DNA of 34,103 nt, taken from contig VRUD01000005.1 in the NCBI GenBank assembly GCA_019456305.1, forward strand, positions 1 through 34,103. Direction: 5' to 3'. The notes beneath the pieces were generated by a model. The model did not search any database. It had not been told where the DNA came from and saw only the letters and a program-made list of their open reading frames with translations. The translations under genes and the position numbers were made by a program. Below are positions 7,581-33,626 of the stretch, one piece after another (the first letter of the stretch is position 1; every line of letters begins with the position of its first letter). The DNA is from Cytophagales bacterium. Lineage in GTDB: Bacteria > Bacteroidota > Bacteroidia > Cytophagales > VRUD01.

Positions 7581-8255
7581 TTGAAACTTTTCATAAACGA
7601 CATCCCGGTTGAATTTATAAAAGAAAAAAAACTTTCTTCTAAAACCCACTATGATATTATTTTTTCCAGCAAAGATAAGATAGTTTTAAAGAAATTGACC
7701 GGAAAAGTATTGGTTAACAAAGCTACCCCAAAACATTTTGATAAGCTCTTCAAGTTTTTTAATCAAAAAAAACTCAAAAAGCTAACTTCTCTTACTTTTG
7801 CAGTAAGAAGCAAAAAACATTACAAAAAATTTCTGAAGGACCAGTTTCGTATTGTAAAAGCTGCCGGTGGTTTGGTTAAAAAAAACGATCAGATATTAAT
7901 GATCCATAGACTGGGAAAATGGGATCTGCCCAAAGGCAAGCTCAATAAAAATGAAAGATCAAAGTTATGTGCCTTAAGAGAAGTCGGGGAAGAATGCAAT
8001 ATAAAAGTTGAATTGACCGGTAAATTGTGCACTACGTGGCACACTTACACAAGAAATAACAAAAGACTACTTAAAAGAACTAAATGGTACCAGATGCACT
8101 GTCTTGATGATTCAAAAATGGCTCCGCAAACCGAAGAAGACATTGAAGAGGTAAAATGGATGGACAAAGGTGAAATCCGGGAAGCATTGGAGAATAGTTA
8201 TGAAACGATAAAGGATGTTTTTAGGAAGTATTATAGCCCTACGAATTACGAATAA
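7581..8255 (+). CDS. NUDIX hydrolase
   Basis: A NUDIX box is clear at about residues 119-140: GKLNKNE, then REVGEEC, giving the G-x5-E-x7-RE-x2-EE spacing, preceded by AAGGLVKKNDQILMIHR and WDLPKGK. NUDIX enzymes hydrolyse nucleoside diphosphates linked to another moiety; the substrate cannot be deduced. The N-terminal about 90 residues are a separate, lysine-rich region. No ATG is available, so the start is taken as the TTG at 7581 (ATT at 7572 is an alternative). The last six residues (SPTNYE) are encoded by the left arm of the palindrome at 8236-8312. Confidence 0.85.
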   Translation: MKLFINDIPVEFIKEKKLSSKTHYDIIFSSKDKIVLKKLTGKVLVNKATPKHFDKLFKFFNQKKLKKLTSLTFAVRSKKHYKKFLKDQFRIVKAAGGLVKKNDQILMIHRLGKWDLPKGKLNKNERSKLCALREVGEECNIKVELTGKLCTTWHTYTRNNKRLLKRTKWYQMHCLDDSKMAPQTEEDIEEVKWMDKGEIREALENSYETIKDVFRKYYSPTNYE

Positions 8256-8312
8256 GCGAATTACGAATAAAAACGCATCATTCGTAATTCGTAAATTCGT
8301 AATTGGTAGGGC
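8236..8312. repeat. Palindrome between convergent genes, overlapping the NUDIX 3' end
   Basis: The outer arms start GCCCTAC and end GTAGGGC. The inner part is built of GAATTACGAATAA-type short repeats in inverted order. It overlaps the last codons and stop of the NUDIX gene and ends 8 bases before the batC stop. It may act as a bidirectional terminator. Confidence 0.75.
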
Positions 8313-8319
8313 CATGTGT

Positions 8320-11542: not shown

Positions 11543-11580
11543 ATACGAATAAGGGTATATTAGGATTTTATTATTCGTAT
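11543..11580. repeat. Hairpin spanning the menI-menF gap
   Basis: Perfect 10-bp arms (ATACGAATAA at 11543-11552 and its complement at 11571-11580). The right arm includes the first two bases of the menF start codon, so the start could be hidden by the stem. Confidence 0.55.
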
Positions 11581-12895
11581 GAAACCAAATATAATTGCTA
11601 ACACTTTATTTAATCCAGATGCCTTCGAAAAAAAAGAGGTACTGAATGCTTTTTACCAAACTGCATTATTTAAGCAATACCCAATTGCAATCTGGCAGCT
11701 GCCACAAACCGGAATCAAAAATGTTGCTATTAATCTTTCCAAAAAAGCTGAGATTACAAAGTTAGACCTGGAATCACAATTGTCTGGATTTGCCTTTTCG
11801 CCTTTCAATAATCTAAACGGAAAATCTACGATCTTTATTAAATCTGATCTCTATTTTAATACAGCAAAAAATAAAATCATTGAAAGTTTTAACCTACAGA
11901 CTAGTCCTGCTAAAGCTGCAGCCAGAGATGAATTTTTCAAACTCCTGGAGGATTTTTTGATGAACATCCAGCCCTGTGATCCCGAGTACTCGGGATCACA
12001 GGGTAAACATCCAGCACCTGCCCGCCCGCCTGTCTGGCGGACAGGCCAATTGGCAGGCGGGTCCAGCATCCAGCACCAAGAATTTTATTGCCAAATTGTG
12101 AAAAAAGCCATCCGGGAGATCAAAAATGGTATTTTCAGAAAATTGGTTCTTTCCAGAACAAAAACTTTTGAACTAACTCAAAAACTTGATCCTTTATTAA
12201 TTTTTGAAAAGCTTTGCAATGCTTATCCGAATTCGTTTATTTACTTAGTTTCAATTCCTGGAAATCCAACCTGGATGGGAGCATCACCAGAGATATTGCT
12301 GAGCGTAGATCATAACAATATATTCAAAACAACTGCCATGGCAGGAACGCAGCCACTGAAACCCGGAACCTCTCCCAAAAAGGCAGCCTGGACACAAAAA
12401 GAAATTGAAGAGCAGGCTTTGGTAAGCAGGTTTATCATTAATTGTTTTAAAAAGATCCGTTTACGGGAATTTGAGGAAGAAGGCCCCAAGACCATCATTG
12501 CCGGTAATTTAATGCACTTGCGAACGGACTATACAGTGGATATGAATGCTGTAAACTTTCCACAACTAGGTACAGTAATGCTTGACCTGCTGCATCCTAC
12601 TTCTGCCGTCTGCGGCATGCCGAAAAATGAATCTATGGAATTTATTCTAGCCAATGAAAATTACAACAGGGAATTTTACACCGGGTATTTAGGGCCGGTT
12701 AATATGCCGTGTCAGGTGGAAACACCTGACGCCACAGAAACGCATCTTTTTGTCAATTTACGTTGTATGCAGTTGTCGGATAATAAGGCGATCCTATACG
12801 CAGGATCAGGAATTACAGAAGATTCTGAACCGGAGAGTGAATGGGAGGAGACGGAGTTAAAGTGTAAGACAATTTTGGATGTGATTGGTAAATGA
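11579..12895 (+). CDS. menF: Isochorismate synthase with an in-frame repeat insertion
   Basis: Converts chorismate to isochorismate, the first committed step of menaquinone synthesis. The chorismate-binding domain runs from about residue 170 (EFYCQIVKKAIREIKNGIFRKLVLSR) to the end. It includes MGASPEILLS, TTAMAGTQPL, LMHLRTDY, HPTSAVCGMPK, NREFYTGYLGPV and the final YAGSGITEDSEPESEWEETE. The N-terminal domain is the weakly conserved half typical of MenF/EntC enzymes. Residues about 130-167 are foreign to the family and are encoded by a block of palindromes at 11964-12078. They lie in the linker before the catalytic domain, so activity may survive. The reading frame is intact. Confidence 0.92.
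   Translation: MKPNIIANTLFNPDAFEKKEVLNAFYQTALFKQYPIAIWQLPQTGIKNVAINLSKKAEITKLDLESQLSGFAFSPFNNLNGKSTIFIKSDLYFNTAKNKIIESFNLQTSPAKAAARDEFFKLLEDFLMNIQPCDPEYSGSQGKHPAPARPPVWRTGQLAGGSSIQHQEFYCQIVKKAIREIKNGIFRKLVLSRTKTFELTQKLDPLLIFEKLCNAYPNSFIYLVSIPGNPTWMGASPEILLSVDHNNIFKTTAMAGTQPLKPGTSPKKAAWTQKEIEEQALVSRFIINCFKKIRLREFEEEGPKTIIAGNLMHLRTDYTVDMNAVNFPQLGTVMLDLLHPTSAVCGMPKNESMEFILANENYNREFYTGYLGPVNMPCQVETPDATETHLFVNLRCMQLSDNKAILYAGSGITEDSEPESEWEETELKCKTILDVIGK
11964..12078. repeat. Compound palindromic insertion inside menF
   Basis: A perfect 32-bp palindrome (11972-12003, core CCCGAGTACTCGGG) is followed by a nested hairpin at 12021-12061 (outer CCCGCCTG/CAGGCGGG, inner CCTGTC/GACAGG). The two are separated and flanked by copies of CATCCAGC (near 11965, 12009 and 12068). 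The whole block is translated in frame as about 38 residues. Confidence 0.88.
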
Positions 12896-12964
12896 AACCA
12901 CGAATTACACGAATTACACGAATTACACAAATTAAATTAGTGTAATTCGTGTAATTAGTGGTTT
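12895..12964. repeat. CACGAATTA palindrome between menF and menD
   Basis: Arms 12895-12919 and 12940-12964 pair at 24 of 25 positions (AAACCACGAATTACACG... family). The left arm starts on the last base of the menF stop and the right arm ends 17 bases before the menD ATG. Relatives lie at 14777-14832 and 30026-30070. Confidence 0.88.
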
Positions 12965-12981
12965 AATTGGACTAAATCAAA

Positions 12982-14754
12982 ATGCTCTTTCAGCCCATTA
13001 TCAACATAGCAGAAATTTGCGCTAAAAAAAACGTAAAAGAAATTATTCTCTCACCAGGTTCACGATGTGCTCCGCTTACGTTAGCATTTGTACGGCATCC
13101 CCAAATTAATACACGTATCATCAGTGATGAAAGGTCAGCCGCTTTTATTGCTTTAGGAATAGCTCAGCAAACAAAAAATCCTTCCGTGCTTGTTTCTACT
13201 TCGGGTACAGCCGTTTTAAATTATGCACCTGCCGTTGCTGAAGCTTTTTATCAAAACATACCGCTAATAATCTTTACAGCCGATCGCCCACCAGAATGGA
13301 TAGGCCAGCATGACGGGCAAACCATCCGCCAGAAAGAAATATACGGCAAAAATTGTAAAGCAAGCTATGAATTACCGGTTGACTACGCCCATCCTGATGC
13401 TGGCTGGCAAATTGAAAGAACGATCTCTGAGGCAATCAACATCAGCAACACTTATCCTCATGGCCCTGTACACATAAATGTCCCGATAAGAGAACCATTT
13501 TATCCCTCTGAAAATGAACGTTTTGAATACACCACAAATATTAAAGTGATCGACCGTGTAGAATCAGAAAAATGCCTTACAGACAAAACCTGGGATAAAT
13601 TATTTAAGATATTTCAGGCCTCACCAAAAAAATTAGTTGTTGCAGGCCTCCAGCACCCTAATCAAAAGTTACAACAAATATTGGATGATTTTCAAAAAAG
13701 CACCGGTATCCCTGTTATAACTGATATTAATTCCAACTTGCATGGTCTTCAAAATATTATACAACACACCGACCTTATTTTAGCTACAAAAAACGAAAAA
13801 ACATTAAAAGAACTGGCACCCGACCTATTAATTTCCTTTGGCGGCCCCGTGATATCAAAAAGCACTAAACTATTTCTCAGAAAGTATCCGGCTAAAGCAC
13901 ACTGGCACATTCAGCCCGCAGGAAATGTCGCTGATACTTTTAAAACACTTACAGATATTATTAATGTGACTCCCAAATATTTTTTCAGTGAAATTATGCG
14001 CAAAGCGCATAGCGCAAAGCGCATGGCGCAAAGCGCATGGTGCATAGCATGGGCGGACCGGGAACAAAAAGCTCAGAATTTTTTAACCAATTTCTTTGAT
14101 AACAAGCCTTTCAGTGAATTTGAAGCGGTTTCAGAAGTCCTTAAAAATCTGCCTCAAGACAGCATTCTGCATCTTGCAAACAGCATGCCCGTTCGATACG
14201 CAAGTATATTGGGGATAAGCGTTGGCAGTTGGCAAAAGGCAGTTGGCAATATTGCCAACTGTCCATTGCCAACTGCCAACTTGGGGGCTGTGGATTTAAG
14301 ATTGGCCATCTATTCAAACAGAGGTACTGGCGGAATTGACGGCTGTATCAGTACTGCAGTTGGTGCAGCAGTTTCTACAAAAAAGATAACAACCGTACTA
14401 TCAGGCGATATGGCTTTTTTTTATGATAGAAATGCTTTGTGGAACAATTACATTCCGGAAAATATCAGAGTGATAATCCTGAATAACCATGGTGGCGGCA
14501 TATTCGGTTTGATTGACGGGCCGGATAAGTTGCCCGAACTGGATGAATATTTTGTTACAAAACAACCATTAAACGCCAAAAATACAGCCAAGGATCATAA
14601 TTTGGATTATTTTTGCTGCGATAAAAGAGAAGAGCTCATCAAATATTTAATAGAATTTTTTAACGTTAGCCGAAAGGCGAAAATATTGGAAATAGAGACG
14701 GATATACTGACAGACAGGAAAGTTTTTAATGATTTTAAGAACATGATTTCATAG
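12982..14754 (+). CDS. menD: SEPHCHC synthase with two in-frame repeat insertions
   Basis: A thiamine-diphosphate enzyme joining 2-oxoglutarate to isochorismate. Recognised by IILSPGSRCAPLTLAF near the N-terminus, FTADRPPEWIGQHDGQTI, the central nucleotide-like domain, YSNRGTGGIDG, the cofactor block GDMAFFYDRNALWN and NNHGGGIFGLI. It has 590 residues; typical MenD has about 550-570. The excess is explained by two blocks unlike the family. Residues 339-357 are encoded by an AGCGCAT heptamer run. Residues 414-433 (VGSWQKAVGN...PLPTAN) are encoded by a 60-bp palindrome. Both fall in linkers or loops around the third domain, and the frame is intact. Confidence 0.93.
   Translation: MLFQPIINIAEICAKKNVKEIILSPGSRCAPLTLAFVRHPQINTRIISDERSAAFIALGIAQQTKNPSVLVSTSGTAVLNYAPAVAEAFYQNIPLIIFTADRPPEWIGQHDGQTIRQKEIYGKNCKASYELPVDYAHPDAGWQIERTISEAINISNTYPHGPVHINVPIREPFYPSENERFEYTTNIKVIDRVESEKCLTDKTWDKLFKIFQASPKKLVVAGLQHPNQKLQQILDDFQKSTGIPVITDINSNLHGLQNIIQHTDLILATKNEKTLKELAPDLLISFGGPVISKSTKLFLRKYPAKAHWHIQPAGNVADTFKTLTDIINVTPKYFFSEIMRKAHSAKRMAQSAWCIAWADREQKAQNFLTNFFDNKPFSEFEAVSEVLKNLPQDSILHLANSMPVRYASILGISVGSWQKAVGNIANCPLPTANLGAVDLRLAIYSNRGTGGIDGCISTAVGAAVSTKKITTVLSGDMAFFYDRNALWNNYIPENIRVIILNNHGGGIFGLIDGPDKLPELDEYFVTKQPLNAKNTAKDHNLDYFCCDKREELIKYLIEFFNVSRKAKILEIETDILTDRKVFNDFKNMIS
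13996..14052. repeat. AGCGCAT heptamer run inserted in menD
   Basis: About seven degenerate 7-bp units (AGCGCAT, AGCGCAA, AGCGCAT, GGCGCAA, AGCGCAT, GGTGCAT...) are translated in frame as RKAHSAKRMAQSAWCIA. The GCGC units also give the run self-complementarity. Confidence 0.85.
14221..14280. repeat. 60-bp palindrome inserted in menD
   Basis: Arms of 30 bases pair at 27 of 30 positions and are built of the heptamer CAGTTGG/GCCAACT. The element occupies exactly 20 codons starting on a codon boundary (residues 414-433). Confidence 0.92.
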
Positions 14755-14833: not shown

Positions 14834-14996
14834 ACACACCCCAATCCCGATTAAAATCGGGATGTCCCCTCTCAAGAGGGGAATTATAGCGTATTATGGG
14901 TGGGAATATGGGCCTGATTCCCCTCTGAAGATCTGTCTAATTCCCCTCTTGAGAGGGGACGTCACCCCGCTGTCAGCGGGGTGACGGGGGTGTGTT
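14834..14996. repeat. 163-bp nested inverted repeat (CACACCCC...GGGGTGTG family)
   Basis: The outer ends are ACACACCCC and GGGGGTGTGT. Each arm contains CCCCTCTCAAGAGGGG or its complement (14866-14881 and 14943-14958) plus a further private palindrome (14844-14863 on the left, 14961-14985 on the right). The private palindromes differ in sequence yet hold the same place. A truncated DUF559 gene begins 31 bases beyond the right end. Apart from this element, the repeat before it and the DUF559 fragment, the 14755-15152 gap is empty. Confidence 0.88.
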
Positions 14997-15156: not shown

Positions 15157-15533
15157 AAAATTTAAACATAGAAAAAACCCCCGACAGCCCTGCAGTAAAT
15201 TTCAATGCAGACAGCGGCATACTTGAAATTAAAGGCAGGTCAATAGCTGATGATATTGTACATTTTTACCGACCAATATTAAGCTGGATAGACAACTATT
15301 GCAAAAAACCCCATCAAAAAACAGTGATGAAAATGTTTTTTGTATATTACAATACAGGTACTTCAAAAAGTATATCAGAGATTTTAAAAAAATTAGACGA
15401 GCTCCATAAAAAGGGCTTTGACGTCAAAGTTTGTTGGTATTATGATGAAGGAGACGAAAGCGCTATGGAAGATGGAGAAGATTTCAAAGATTATATAAGT
15501 GTGCCAATTGAGGTAATTGAAAGTAAAATATGA
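15153..15533 (+). CDS. SiaC-family (DUF1987) regulatory phosphoprotein
   Basis: The 126-residue protein begins [18 protein letters not shown] and has the DUF1987/SiaC layout: [27 protein letters not shown], then [13 protein letters not shown] and an acidic C-terminal part. In Pseudomonas, SiaC is phosphorylated on a Thr in the loop corresponding to residues 68-71 here and controls a diguanylate cyclase through the SiaA/SiaB switch. Only the family is supported here; no SiaA or SiaB partner is in the window. Its stop overlaps the menB start (ATGA), so it is translationally coupled to menB. Confidence 0.8.
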
Positions 15534-16354
15534 AAACCAAATTCCCCTGGAAAACCATCAAAGAATATAAGGAGATCCTGTTCCAATATTATGATGGAAT
15601 TGCCAAAATAAGCATCAACAGGCCCGAGGTTCACAACGCCTTTACCCCGTTAACTGTGAATGAAATGAGCGAAGCATTGGGTCTGGCTCATGAAGATCAG
15701 AAAGTAGGGGTAGTGATATTAACCGGAGAAGGCGGCAAAGCGTTCTGCAGTGGCGGAGATCAAAGTGTTCGAGGGCATGGAGGTTATGTCGGTCACGATG
15801 GCGTTGCACGACTCAATGTATTGGATTTTCAAAAACAGATCCGTTCCATTCCCAAACCTGTGCTAGCGATGGTTGCCGGCTGGGCAATAGGGGGAGGGCA
15901 TGTATTGCATGTAGTTTGCGACCTTACCATTGCTGCGGATAATGCCCGGTTTGGGCAAACAGGCCCTAAAGTAGGCAGCTTTGACGGTGGATATGGCGCC
16001 TCTTATCTGGCTAGGATCGTTGGTCAGAAGAAAGCACGGGAAATATGGTATTTATGTGAACAATATGACGCACAGGAGGCTTTACAAATGGGACTGGTAA
16101 ACAAGGTAGTACCCCTTGAAAAACTGGAAAAAACCACAGTAGAATGGTGTAAAAAGATCCTCGAAAAAAGTCCGCTCGCAATAAGGATGCTTAAAAGCGC
16201 CTTCGATGCAGAATTAAACGGCCAGGCCGGGATACAGGAATTTGCCGGGAATGCCACCCTGCTTTATTATCTCTCAGATGAAGCCAAGGAAGGCAGAGAT
16301 GCTTTTTTAGAAAAAAGAAAGCCTGACTTCTCAAAGTTTACCAAATTCCCTTGA
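15530..16354 (+). CDS. menB: 1,4-dihydroxy-2-naphthoyl-CoA synthase
   Basis: Crotonase-fold enzyme closing the second ring of the naphthoquinone from o-succinylbenzoyl-CoA. MenB features: [18 protein letters not shown], the oxyanion-hole region [39 protein letters not shown], and the MenB-specific [31 protein letters not shown]. Length is 274 residues, as usual. Unlike menF, menD and menE, no repeat insertion is apparent. It starts inside the siaC-like stop codon. Confidence 0.97.
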
Positions 16355-17122: not shown

Positions 17123-18361
17123 ATGGCTTTAATTATTGGAAATAAAACACTTGATTACCAGCAAGTTAAATCAATAAATTTAGACGAGTCTAAAAATCAT
17201 ATTCCTACAAATGAATATAAAACTATTAAGTTTTGTCAGGAATGGATGAGTGGGAAAACAGCGTTCAGGGTCAACACATCAGGCACTACAGGCAAACCCA
17301 GGCAAATAACCATTACGAGAGATCACATGATTACCAGCGCTCAATCAACAGGCAAAACTTTTGGTCTTGAAAAAGGAGACAGCGCATTGGTTTGTTTATC
17401 AACAGATCATATCGCTGGGATCATGATGTTAGTGAGAGGATTTGAATTGGGATTAAAATTAACAGTGATCCCGCCTACCTCTGATCCCTTGAAAGATTTT
17501 CCGGATAATATAAGATTTGACTTTACTGCTTTTGTTCCTCTTCAATTGCACACAATTATCAAAGAAAGTCCGGAGAAGATCAGTATTCTGAATAAAATGA
17601 AAGCCATCATAGTTGGCGGAGCATCCGTTAACGACTCATTGGAGAAAAAAGTACAGATCATTAAAGCGCCTGTGTACAATACATATGGTATGACAGAAAC
17701 AGCATCGCACATAGCTATCCGAAGACTTAATGGACCTGACAGGTCAGCCTTTTATAAAATAATGGACGGTGTAGAAATAGGAATAGATCAGAGAAATTGC
17801 CTGAAAATAAAGTCTGCTAATAATAAATGGTTGATCACAAACGATTTAGTTGAAATCAGCCCCCCTACCGGCCCCCCTCTAACTCCAAGCCCACCTGAAT
17901 CGGAGAAACGAGGAATCGGAGAAACGGAGAAACGGGGCAGGCAATTCACCGATTCACCGATTCACCCATTCATCGATTCGGTAAGGAATAATGGCGGGGG
18001 GGGATTTAGGGGGGCTGCTTTTAAATGGCTTGGCAGGATTGATAATATCATTAACAGTGGTGGCGTAAAAGTTCAGGTAGAAAAAGTTGAAGCCGCTTTA
18101 GAAACTGTCATGACTAAACTTAAACATAGTAACAGGTTGTTTGTAACAGGCCTCCCCCACCCTGCTTTAGGTAAAACTGTAGCTGTAGTTTTTGAAGGCA
18201 AATCATTTTCCAGGGAAAAAAAAGAAAAAATAAAAAAAGCGTTGTCACAGGTGTTAAGCAAATATGAAATACCGCGCTATTTTTACTATCTCAATAAATT
18301 TAAGGAAACACCTTCAGGTAAGATTGACATAAAGAAAAATACTAGTGTAGCAACAATTTAG
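17123..18361 (+). CDS. menE: o-succinylbenzoate-CoA ligase with an in-frame repeat insertion
   Basis: Activates o-succinylbenzoate with ATP and CoA, giving the MenB substrate. AMP-binding signatures: P-loop NTSGTTGKPRQI (about residues 52-64), YNTYGMTETASH, FKWLGRIDNIINSGGVKV (hinge and C-terminal domain) and the final catalytic lysine region TPSGKIDIKK. At 412 residues it is longer than the compact Bacteroidota form I would expect (about 350-370). Residues about 246-298 (PPTGPPLTPSPPESEKRG...) are low-complexity and repeat-encoded, and sit just before the hinge. The C-terminal NTSVATI is also part of a palindrome. Confidence 0.9.
   Translation: MALIIGNKTLDYQQVKSINLDESKNHIPTNEYKTIKFCQEWMSGKTAFRVNTSGTTGKPRQITITRDHMITSAQSTGKTFGLEKGDSALVCLSTDHIAGIMMLVRGFELGLKLTVIPPTSDPLKDFPDNIRFDFTAFVPLQLHTIIKESPEKISILNKMKAIIVGGASVNDSLEKKVQIIKAPVYNTYGMTETASHIAIRRLNGPDRSAFYKIMDGVEIGIDQRNCLKIKSANNKWLITNDLVEISPPTGPPLTPSPPESEKRGIGETEKRGRQFTDSPIHPFIDSVRNNGGGGFRGAAFKWLGRIDNIINSGGVKVQVEKVEAALETVMTKLKHSNRLFVTGLPHPALGKTVAVVFEGKSFSREKKEKIKKALSQVLSKYEIPRYFYYLNKFKETPSGKIDIKKNTSVATI
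17857..18017. repeat. Nested palindromic insertion inside menE
   Basis: The outer arms are CAGCCCCCCTA and TAGGGGGGCTG. The inside (about 17898-17985) pairs CGGAGAAA-type 8-mers with CACCGATT-type 8-mers in inverted order. The block is translated in frame as about 53 residues rich in Pro, Gly, Glu and Arg. Confidence 0.85.
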
Positions 18362-18431
18362 TTTTGCAACATTAATTTGTAATAATATATTTTATGATTA
18401 CAATATTGCGTAATTAAATTGTTGCTACACT
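18344..18431. repeat. Long hairpin over the menE stop codon
   Basis: Perfect 17-bp arms at 18344-18360 and 18415-18431 (AGTGTAGCAACAATTTA family), with an imperfect inner stem (TTGTAAT/ATTACAA). The left arm encodes the MenE C-terminus. It may serve as terminator. Confidence 0.82.
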
Positions 18432-20686: not shown

Positions 20687-20713
20687 GAAATACTTTTTTA
20701 CCGGTATGATACA

Positions 20714-20783
20714 AGTCGACAGTCCACAGTCCACAAACAGCAGTATGTAATTTTTGCCGATTGCCGACTGTGGACTGCCGACT
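20714..20783. repeat. CCACAGT heptamer hairpin
   Basis: AGTCGACAGTCCACAGTC at the left pairs with the right end (20766-20783) at 17 of 18 positions. The arms are 7-bp CCACAGT units. Confidence 0.8.
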
Positions 20784-20835
20784 TCTGGCTGATTAATTTA
20801 TATCAACAAAATTATCGTTAACATGTTATCAAAGT

Positions 20836-30977: not shown

Positions 30978-33626
30978 TTAATAACGAATAATTATTTTTC
31001 TAATGACAGTTGAATCTCCATCAGTAACTTTAATGAAATACATCCCGTTACTTTGATCGAACATGTCAATAGTTACATGGTGCTCGTTGGGGCTCAACCG
31101 GACATTTTTAACCAATTTGCCAAAGATATCGTAAACAAAAATATCTTTAGCGCCAGTCTGCTCATTGGCAAAAATGATATTAAAATAGCCCGAAGAAGGA
31201 TTGGGGTAAATTTTTATGCTGCCAAAGTCAATGAACTCATTTATATTACTTACTATTCCTATAATAACTGTGTCAGTGACACTTTCACTACAAAGTATAT
31301 CCGCCACAGTTATTATGTACGTTCCTGAACCAAGGCCGGTTGCTAAAGGAGTAGTTTGAGTTGAATCATCATTCCACTGGTAGGTATAAACTCCGGAGCC
31401 ACCAAGAACAGAAGCAATAGCTGTACCATCATTACAAGCCGGACAGGTTGCATCGGACGAAGAAGTTATTACAGAAAGCGCTGCCGGTTCACCAATAATA
31501 ACCGTTGTAGTGGAAGTGTCACCGGTTGAATCGATCACTGCCACACTATAAGTACCAGCACAAAGTCCGGTGGCTGTAGCTGTAGTTTGAACAGAATCAT
31601 CATCCCACAAATATGTAAAAGGGGGAATTTGATTAGCGCTGCCGATTGCCGTAGCCTGGCCATTGCAGGTCCCTTTACATGAAACATCCATTGCTGAGGT
31701 AATAAAGGCACAGTTTTCAGAGGTACAGTTTGATATCCTTATATTATCTATCTGAGTTTTATGGGTAAAGCCAAAGAAATTATATAACAGATTGGCGCCC
31801 TCAAAAGTGATTTTCATTATGTTCGTTGAAGTATCAATATATGAGGTCAAATCAAATATGTTATGCTTCCAGATATTTTCAAAATTAATACTACTTGGGT
31901 TGAAACATGTGTCAAGTTGTACACCATTTACCAATACATGAAAATTGGTGAGTGATGGATCCCATTGAAACCATTGCCTGATATCAAATTCAAGATACAA
32001 CGTGTCATATCCGGTTGTATTTACAGTTAAAATAGCAGATGAAGAATAATCAGCATTAATGGTGAATGTGCTTTCGCAGCCAAAAGTAGTATCCCAGCCT
32101 GAAAAATTACCAGAAGAACCGGCAAAAAATAATCCTATACTACCACTTTTGCCTTCTGAACTTTTTATTTCAGCATGAGAATTAATATCACTGATTATAC
32201 ACAATGAAGCGCTGGTATCTTCAAAGTCTTCAAAATAGGGAACTGAAACAATTCCTGTCACATCAGTGAGAGCAATGAAGTCACTTATTGTATTGCTGCC
32301 AATATTATTATAGGCATTTAATGTTACAGTATATATGCCCGGGTTAGTAAAAATATGAGTAGGCATATAATTCGTAGAAGTATTATTGGGTGAAGCTGGA
32401 TCTCCAAAATCCCAAAAAACAGAATCAGCATTGATGCTGCTGTTTTTAAAAGTGACTTCATAAGGGGAGCAGCCTTTGATATTAGCTACTGAAAATGATG
32501 CAGCGGGAGGTTGTGTATGCGGTCCTTGTCTCATTACAAACAACCCGTATGTAATATCACATCCTAAAATATTGCCTGAAGGCAGGAAAGGATATACTCC
32601 CCAACACCCGTTATAACCGCCATAACCAATATTATCAGGATAGGTGTCATAATAAGAAACCTGAGTGGCTAGTGTATCATTTGTAATATCAAAAACCTGG
32701 ACGCCATCTTCATAATAAGCGATATAAACACTATCACCTTTGATAAAGGGATTGTGAGCCATTGCGCCTGTATTTGAACGAAAAACGCTCTTTAACACAG
32801 GGTTGGAAATATCGGATATATCATAGATCTTTAAACCGCTGCCCTGTGTTTCATCAGCAAATATCAATGTGTTGCCATCTTCTGTTACCCAGGAGGAGTG
32901 ATTGTAACCTTGTTCAGGGTAAGTTGTGATGCTGCTGATCAGCTGAGGACTAACGGGATTGGTTAAATCATAGATAAAAAATCCGTCATTACCATTAGAG
33001 CAGTAGGCAGTATCATTTCTAACATAAGCATCATGGACATACATCCCTGATAAATTCACAGTAGCTAAAAGGGTGGGATTTTCAGGGTTAGTAGCTATAT
33101 CCAGCACCTTCATACTCCATGAAAAGTCTCCCAAAATATACAACCTACCGCTGGCAGTATCGATAAAATTGGTATGTGCATTTGAAAAAAAAATATTACT
33201 GTCGAAAACTTTATCTACAGAATCCGGCAGATACTGCAGGTCAAAAATTTGAAGAGAACCGGTGCCCTCGTCAGTTACTCCATAGCAATAATTTTTGTAT
33301 GTTTTATAATCTCTGTGTATTCCACCTGTATTTTTTCCAGGTTCTTTATCACATAGTACCGGATTATATGGATCGGTCACATCCACAAAATAGGTGTAAT
33401 CTTCATTGCCAAAAATAGCATATTCATTACCCGTAGAATCCACATATCCCCATACATCGTTGTAATTCAAATTAACAGTAGTATCTTTCCAATTTGACAA
33501 TAAAGTCATATTTGAAGAGACCTGGGAGAAACAGTTGGCAGTTGGCAGTTGGCAGTAAGCAGTCAGAAATACTGCTGCTATTACAGCTTTTGCCTTTCTT
33601 TGTGAAATTTTTGTAATTGTTTTCAT
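30978..33626 (-). CDS. Choice-of-anchor B family T9SS protein with PKD and SprB-type repeats
   Basis: The order is: signal peptide; an LVIVD-type propeller at about 40-370 (GYVDSTGNEYAIFGNEDYTYFVDVTDP, DAYVRNDTAYCSNGNDGFFIYDLTNP), as in choice-of-anchor B proteins; a PKD domain at about 375-455 (SFSVANIKGCSPYEVTFKNSS, VFWDFGDP); a jelly-roll-like region; two SprB-type repeats at about 640-785 (DVSCKGTCNGQATAIG, GTYSVAVIDSTGDT); and a T9SS sorting domain (IKIYPNPSSGYFNIIF...GMYFIKV). It is probably cell-surface or released. The signal peptide core and cleavage region (LTAYCQLPTANCFSQ) are encoded by a GCCAACT heptamer run. Confidence 0.92.
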   Translation of the reverse strand: MKTITKISQRKAKAVIAAVFLTAYCQLPTANCFSQVSSNMTLLSNWKDTTVNLNYNDVWGYVDSTGNEYAIFGNEDYTYFVDVTDPYNPVLCDKEPGKNTGGIHRDYKTYKNYCYGVTDEGTGSLQIFDLQYLPDSVDKVFDSNIFFSNAHTNFIDTASGRLYILGDFSWSMKVLDIATNPENPTLLATVNLSGMYVHDAYVRNDTAYCSNGNDGFFIYDLTNPVSPQLISSITTYPEQGYNHSSWVTEDGNTLIFADETQGSGLKIYDISDISNPVLKSVFRSNTGAMAHNPFIKGDSVYIAYYEDGVQVFDITNDTLATQVSYYDTYPDNIGYGGYNGCWGVYPFLPSGNILGCDITYGLFVMRQGPHTQPPAASFSVANIKGCSPYEVTFKNSSINADSVFWDFGDPASPNNTSTNYMPTHIFTNPGIYTVTLNAYNNIGSNTISDFIALTDVTGIVSVPYFEDFEDTSASLCIISDINSHAEIKSSEGKSGSIGLFFAGSSGNFSGWDTTFGCESTFTINADYSSSAILTVNTTGYDTLYLEFDIRQWFQWDPSLTNFHVLVNGVQLDTCFNPSSINFENIWKHNIFDLTSYIDTSTNIMKITFEGANLLYNFFGFTHKTQIDNIRISNCTSENCAFITSAMDVSCKGTCNGQATAIGSANQIPPFTYLWDDDSVQTTATATGLCAGTYSVAVIDSTGDTSTTTVIIGEPAALSVITSSSDATCPACNDGTAIASVLGGSGVYTYQWNDDSTQTTPLATGLGSGTYIITVADILCSESVTDTVIIGIVSNINEFIDFGSIKIYPNPSSGYFNIIFANEQTGAKDIFVYDIFGKLVKNVRLSPNEHHVTIDMFDQSNGMYFIKVTDGDSTVIRKIIIRY
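33531..33565. repeat. CAGTTGG heptamer run encoding part of a signal peptide
   Basis: Three exact and two degenerate 7-bp units (on the coding strand ACTGCTT, ACTGCCA x3, ACTGTTT) encode residues 22-32 of the T9SS protein. The same heptamer builds the 60-bp palindrome in menD. Confidence 0.85.

Follow-up and report, generated by a model that had tools for sequence, protein, structure and literature searches.

Why does a gene of menaquinone synthesis carry a near-perfect palindrome within its reading frame, and does that palindrome serve the gene in which it lies? The question is raised by menD (12982-14754, + strand), an intact gene of 590 codons in the window, by which we mean the whole stretch of 34,103 nucleotides analysed here. 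Its product was identified as MenD by NCBIfam TIGR00173 (393 bits, above cut-off) and by a fold match to solved MenD structures. A 60-bp palindrome at 14221-14280 (+ strand) encodes the peptide VGSWQKAVGNIANCPLPTAN within this protein. A sequence-only reading of the locus took the palindrome for an insertion into menD and expected the mRNA to form a very strong hairpin.

The palindrome and its setting

The gene is part of a men cluster. Upstream of menD lies a menF-like isochorismate synthase gene (11579-12895, + strand), and its downstream neighbour is menB (15530-16354, + strand; TIGR01929, above cut-off). The o-succinylbenzoate-CoA ligase gene menE (17123-18361, + strand) follows 2.4 kb downstream of menD; it has a solved homologue, 4gs5, and its top NCBIfam match is TIGR01923, under the cut-off and split into two stretches. 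A DHNA-CoA thioesterase-like gene is also present, and the cluster surrounding menD looks to be in use.

The two arms of the palindrome (14221-14250 and 14251-14280) are 30 nt each, abut without a spacer and are complementary at 27 of 30 positions (90%). The repeat begins in phase 0 at codon 414 and is 20 codons long, so that the near-perfect, in-frame palindrome described from the letters is indeed there. Every one of the six frames of the 60-mer is open. That the palindrome ends on codon boundaries is little informative, because the ends are soft and a fit of both length and phase has a chance of about 1 in 9, and because inside an intact gene only in-frame copies are visible. The RNA is predicted to fold at -47.6 kcal/mol, against a mean of -18.7 (sd 3.0) for dinucleotide shuffles (z -9.5), and none of the 200 shuffles matched it; the expectation of a strong hairpin is thus borne out computationally. 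The stem has three unpaired positions and is not followed by a U run.

An insertion relative to other MenD proteins

MenD sequences for comparison came from genomes belonging to the same order but to other families, and from 80 named relatives. The nearest of the latter, Splendidivirga and Pontibacter among them, belong to the Cytophagales and have about 50-55% identity. The loop could be measured in 104 sequences, a few near-duplicates among them. The stretches SMPVRYASILG and YSNRGTGGIDG had been said to lie much closer together in other MenD proteins, and the comparison agrees: from NSMxVR to NRG there are 14-22 residues (mode 17) in the 104 relatives and 40 in this MenD. Comparable extra residues occur in none of the 104, nor does the MenD alignment show any relative with a homologous loop as long as this one. 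The loop of this MenD is longer by 22-23 residues (66-69 nt), the length of the 60-bp palindrome and 2-3 further codons. A TTGGGG directly abuts the 3' end of the palindrome (14281-14286, + strand) and recurs 6 nt before it (14209-14214, + strand). The pair may represent the halves of a 6-bp target-site duplication, and the loop is compatible with a 72-bp insertion of that kind; the duplication is only suggestive, because flanks of such size would contain a match by chance with a probability of about 0.04.

The AlphaFold model of this MenD has a mean pLDDT of 87.9 and superposes on solved MenD structures with a TM of about 0.85. Residues 418-437, preceded by a helix and followed by a strand, are the sole stretch with a pLDDT below 50. 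The predicted fold is therefore normal apart from the low-confidence loop of the insert. As far as sequence comparison goes, the palindrome is confirmed as an insertion relative to the relatives, absent from the orthologues compared.

A dispersed family of heptamer palindromes

The genome (4.2 Mb in 159 contigs) was searched with 120 bp around the palindrome. The search returned 78 matches, many of which are both strands of one place. The closest other copy (C81:11397-11463) is 93% identical over 67 nt and has unrelated flanks; the order of its heptamer variants is nearly identical to that in menD, and a copy on contig 67 has unit order, centre and length in common with both. The exact string AGTTGGCAGTTGGCA occurs 105 times in the genome, compared with 0 for a reversed control. 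Contigs were further read over 0.9 Mb in stretches, part of them around repeat matches and part picked independently, so densities of CAGTTGG copies in this sample are biased upward. Within it, and with the same bias towards matches, a profile search found 61 places. The family is built of the units AGTTGGC, AGTAGGC, AGTCGGC, AATTGGC and AGTTGAC around centres such as GGCAATATTGCC, and the profile places also comprise plain tandem heptamer arrays, one of about 25 units at L126:3113-3288. Most copies are intergenic, which places the menD copy among the few that are clearly gene-internal. The insertion and the predicted hairpin of the sequence-only reading stand; the palindrome is not private to menD, being a copy of a repeat dispersed throughout the genome.

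A strict palindrome pattern gave 8 matches (7 separate places) in this genome. Among 290 other genomes of the order 6 have it, as do 2 of 197 further genomes drawn from the phylum, each with one or two matches. The CAGTTGG family has thus expanded in this lineage. The heptamer has no stop in six frames, an endless array reading LAVGSWQ or LPTANCQ, so that copies of an in-frame length would be read through in any phase or strand. Variants that contain AGTAGGC are not always stop-free.

The window holds further repeats. A tandem CAGTTGG tract at 33533-33575 falls in the first codons of an 882-codon ORF on the minus strand for a T9SS-sorted protein, the true start of which may lie downstream of the tract. 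For the same reason heptamer tracts near ORF N-termini were left out of the coding count. Long inverted repeats lie at gene edges or between genes at 8233-8315, 12891-12968, 14861-14963, 18344-18431 and 20713-20784, and several of them are similar to repeats elsewhere in the genome.

Other repeats inside coding genes

The menD palindrome is not the only repeat in this gene. A second dispersed repeat, of the GCGCAAAGCGCATGG type, is in frame at 14002-14050 (+ strand); genome matches (47, the closest other copy 88% identical over 49 nt) and the alignment identify it as a partial copy in a region of variable length among relatives. A third family has made a 150-bp in-frame insertion in menE (17858-18007, + strand). 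In the alignment with 4gs5, menE residue 245 aligns to 238 and residue 296 to 239 without loss, a gain of exactly 50 residues, and the family has about 40 copies in the genome, one of them 97% identical over 150 nt.

Of the strong palindromes in the sample, 31 of 112 lie entirely inside ORFs, some of these near N-termini where they may be outside the true gene. Clear in-frame examples are found in MoeA (L168:5608-5667; 60 nt, 20 additional residues), AroA (L180:12719-12797; 79 nt, 26 additional residues) and an asparagine synthetase (L178:18906-19006). Clear too are the insert in an M1 peptidase and that in a DUF4175 protein, both absent from the compared orthologues. A chorismate-binding enzyme (L156:10300-10356) has a further in-frame palindromic insert. 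To judge by these alignments, genes of this genome have been invaded in frame by several short repeat families.

Locus-specific arms in the AGAGACG family

Palindromes of the form AGAGACG(N10-11)CGTCTCT, a family different from CAGTTGG, occur at 101 places in the genome (examples lie at L130:2497-2559, L148:7648-7705 and L175:12801-12867). Outside the core their arms continue to be palindromic for 2-25 nt, and the sequence of these outer arms differs between loci. In 35 sampled copies, picked by the core alone, own-partner pairing at nucleotides 3-7 beyond the core is 93%, against 28% for partners taken from other loci; over nucleotides 3-12 the match sum is 286, compared with 100 +/- 11 in permutations. 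The arms may have arisen by template switching at the palindromic core, or by insertion into the centres of existing palindromes. The DUF4175 gene has a net gain of about 8-9 residues over its orthologues, roughly what the core by itself would add, as though an inverted copy of one flank had replaced the other. In MoeA, unlike DUF4175, the gain is the whole palindrome, and the picture is mixed. A paralogous pair of filled and empty sites (L171:14340 and 18160) has diverged too far for the insertion event to be read.

For CAGTTGG, a rough all-pairs comparison of arms with their own partners was suggestive, but its places had been preselected as palindromic. A centre-anchored permutation showed no significant excess of own-partner matches (p 0.26), and the claim was dropped for this family.

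Transposases and larger elements

Seven Y1_Tnp transposase genes were found in the genome, and none of the seven is bracketed by CAGTTGG palindromes; a Y1/RAYT link to the family was rejected on this ground. One RAYT-like Y1 gene is flanked by a row of other palindromes, CATCGGATGAC...GTCATCCGATG, at L193 (C27:6893-7090). These are also seen at L147:6527, L153:6060 and L154:2667, and the pair belongs to a composite repeat with at least six copies.

Two composite elements were found around heptamers, and the menD copy is in neither. A MITE-like element, about 230 bp long and bounded by the inverted ends GGCTCTTTTCTAAATATTGG, was seen in five copies (L127:6044-6154, L149:6006-6116, L148:6023-6193, L151:5981-6084 and L177:12290-12410, with flanks) and has CAGTTGG palindromes inside it. 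Transposition of larger elements could hence have spread some copies of the family. The menD copy has the duplicated TTGGGG, with its chance of about 0.04, and does not lie within the MITE-like element.

Origin of the menD palindrome

We consider it very probable that the menD palindrome, as a copy of a dispersed repeat, landed in a loop of the enzyme, where it is near-neutral, probably selfish and without a dedicated role in menD. The repeat is made of degenerate heptamers, CAGTTGG and its variants, in opposed orientation on the two sides of a GGCAATATTGCC-like centre. A copy would have landed in the menD loop after the lineage split from its known relatives. As the insert had a length that kept the reading frame and a heptamer free of stops, it would be translated, and the 22-23 extra residues of which it is part would make a disordered loop that a presumably working enzyme tolerates. 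Copies that keep the frame and fall into tolerant loops would survive in genes, the remaining ones being seen between genes, and the menD insert would be one case among several repeat families that entered coding genes.

How the palindromes come to be planted and lengthened is a related matter. It is conceivable, and no more than tentatively proposed, that a process run by the genome itself plants small palindromes in genes and lengthens them by fold-back copying of the flanks, that is, by template switching. The proposal of lengthening derives from the AGAGACG signature of own-partner pairing, and the corresponding test in CAGTTGG was not significant. If true, flank copying would mean that hairpins and the peptide loops they encode arise and grow with no transposase dedicated to them, and the menD palindrome would be one product.

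The alternative that fares best dispenses with a mobile element: a heptamer tract would have grown by slippage within menD and then been turned into a palindrome by fold-back template switching. Plain tandem arrays such as that at L126:3113-3288 do occur, the locus-specific arms of the AGAGACG family are a template-switch signature, and such switching is known to generate hairpins and to preserve them (PMC8794818). However, a common master is suggested by the contig-81 and contig-67 copies, whose unit order, centre and length are those of the menD copy, and own-partner matching in the CAGTTGG family does not exceed that in permutations. We therefore judge growth in place to be unlikely, and arrival by dispersal the better account.

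Less probable still is a hairpin that acts in the menD mRNA as a site of ribosome pausing, attenuation or processing and is selected to tune menaquinone synthesis. Its great predicted stability and its location within a biosynthetic gene cluster speak for such a function. The same family is, however, found at dozens of unrelated places, mainly intergenic, the palindrome is absent in all compared relatives, the stem has its unpaired positions and lacks a U run behind it, and other families behave alike in other genes. As the family is genome-wide and other repeats stand in frame in menD, menE and further genes, a role specific to menD is unlikely, and a dedicated regulatory role of the hairpin is not supported. 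Finally, although a 159-contig assembly with many repeats, and palindromes being hard to sequence, could let another repeat copy be joined into menD during assembly or binning, such an artefact can be set aside as scarcely credible, given an ORF open through the insert for its 590 codons, an insert length equal to the excess over relatives, and the inserts that other families have placed cleanly and in frame in menE, MoeA and AroA on other contigs.

Relation to known repeats and significance

As a copy of a dispersed repeat, the menD palindrome has its nearest counterparts in the palindromic elements of Rickettsia (RPE), which, in the work of Ogata and colleagues of 2000 and 2002 as summarised in PMC10969869, enter unrelated functional genes without breaking the frame and are translated. 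Like these and the Wolbachia palindromic elements, the repeats of the present genome are short palindromes of several families that stand in frame in genes. To go by copy number, frame and absence from orthologues, the menD insert appears to work like coding palindromes of the RPE kind. The RPE are longer (about 150 bp, compared with about 60 here), and the family described here is built of heptamers, mostly intergenic and housed in a Cytophagales-like host; no sequence relation is claimed, host phylum and unit length setting the two apart.

Similarly, more than half of intragenic GTAG/CGTC REPs are dimers or groups that encode 20-30 residues (PMC3733652). They resemble the present repeats as high-copy palindromes that are sometimes found in genes, core genes included, with inserts of this size. 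The menD copy and its best relatives, however, start and end with GTTGGC/GCCAAC, untagged, and the family is heptamer-built. In view of the missing GTAG or CGTC end tag and of a missing tie to an adjoining RAYT, it was not filed with these REPs. Inverted repeats within protein-coding genes are also known from Nematomorpha mitochondria, where they are long and perfect (PMC6649704). The likeness ends with their position in genes, as these are mitochondrial and not a dispersed family. Tandem 7-bp arrays are a feature that the CAGTTGG family has in common with another group of repeats. Cyanobacterial tandem heptamer repeats (STRR), together with small dispersed repeats, were reportedly described by Elhai and colleagues in 2008; they are said to share the heptamer units, the tandem arrays and the nested small palindromic elements, and to differ in their host phylum and in the sequence of the unit; what is prominent in the present genome is insertion into genes in frame.

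A literature search by repeat sequence returned only primers and unrelated matches, and a description of the CAGTTGG family was not found in the literature searched, mostly without subscription journals, which is weak evidence of novelty. We regard the phenomenon as known and the family as new, the number of families in the coding genes of one genome being unusual. Coding palindromes have so far been mainly a peculiarity of Rickettsia, with fewer in some REP-rich species. Here, core enzymes contain at least four distinct families of short repeats in frame, of which three occur within two genes of a single cluster. This Cytophagales-like genome thus offers a second, independent system in which to follow how proteins absorb insertions that were not selected and how palindromes spread without a visible transposase.
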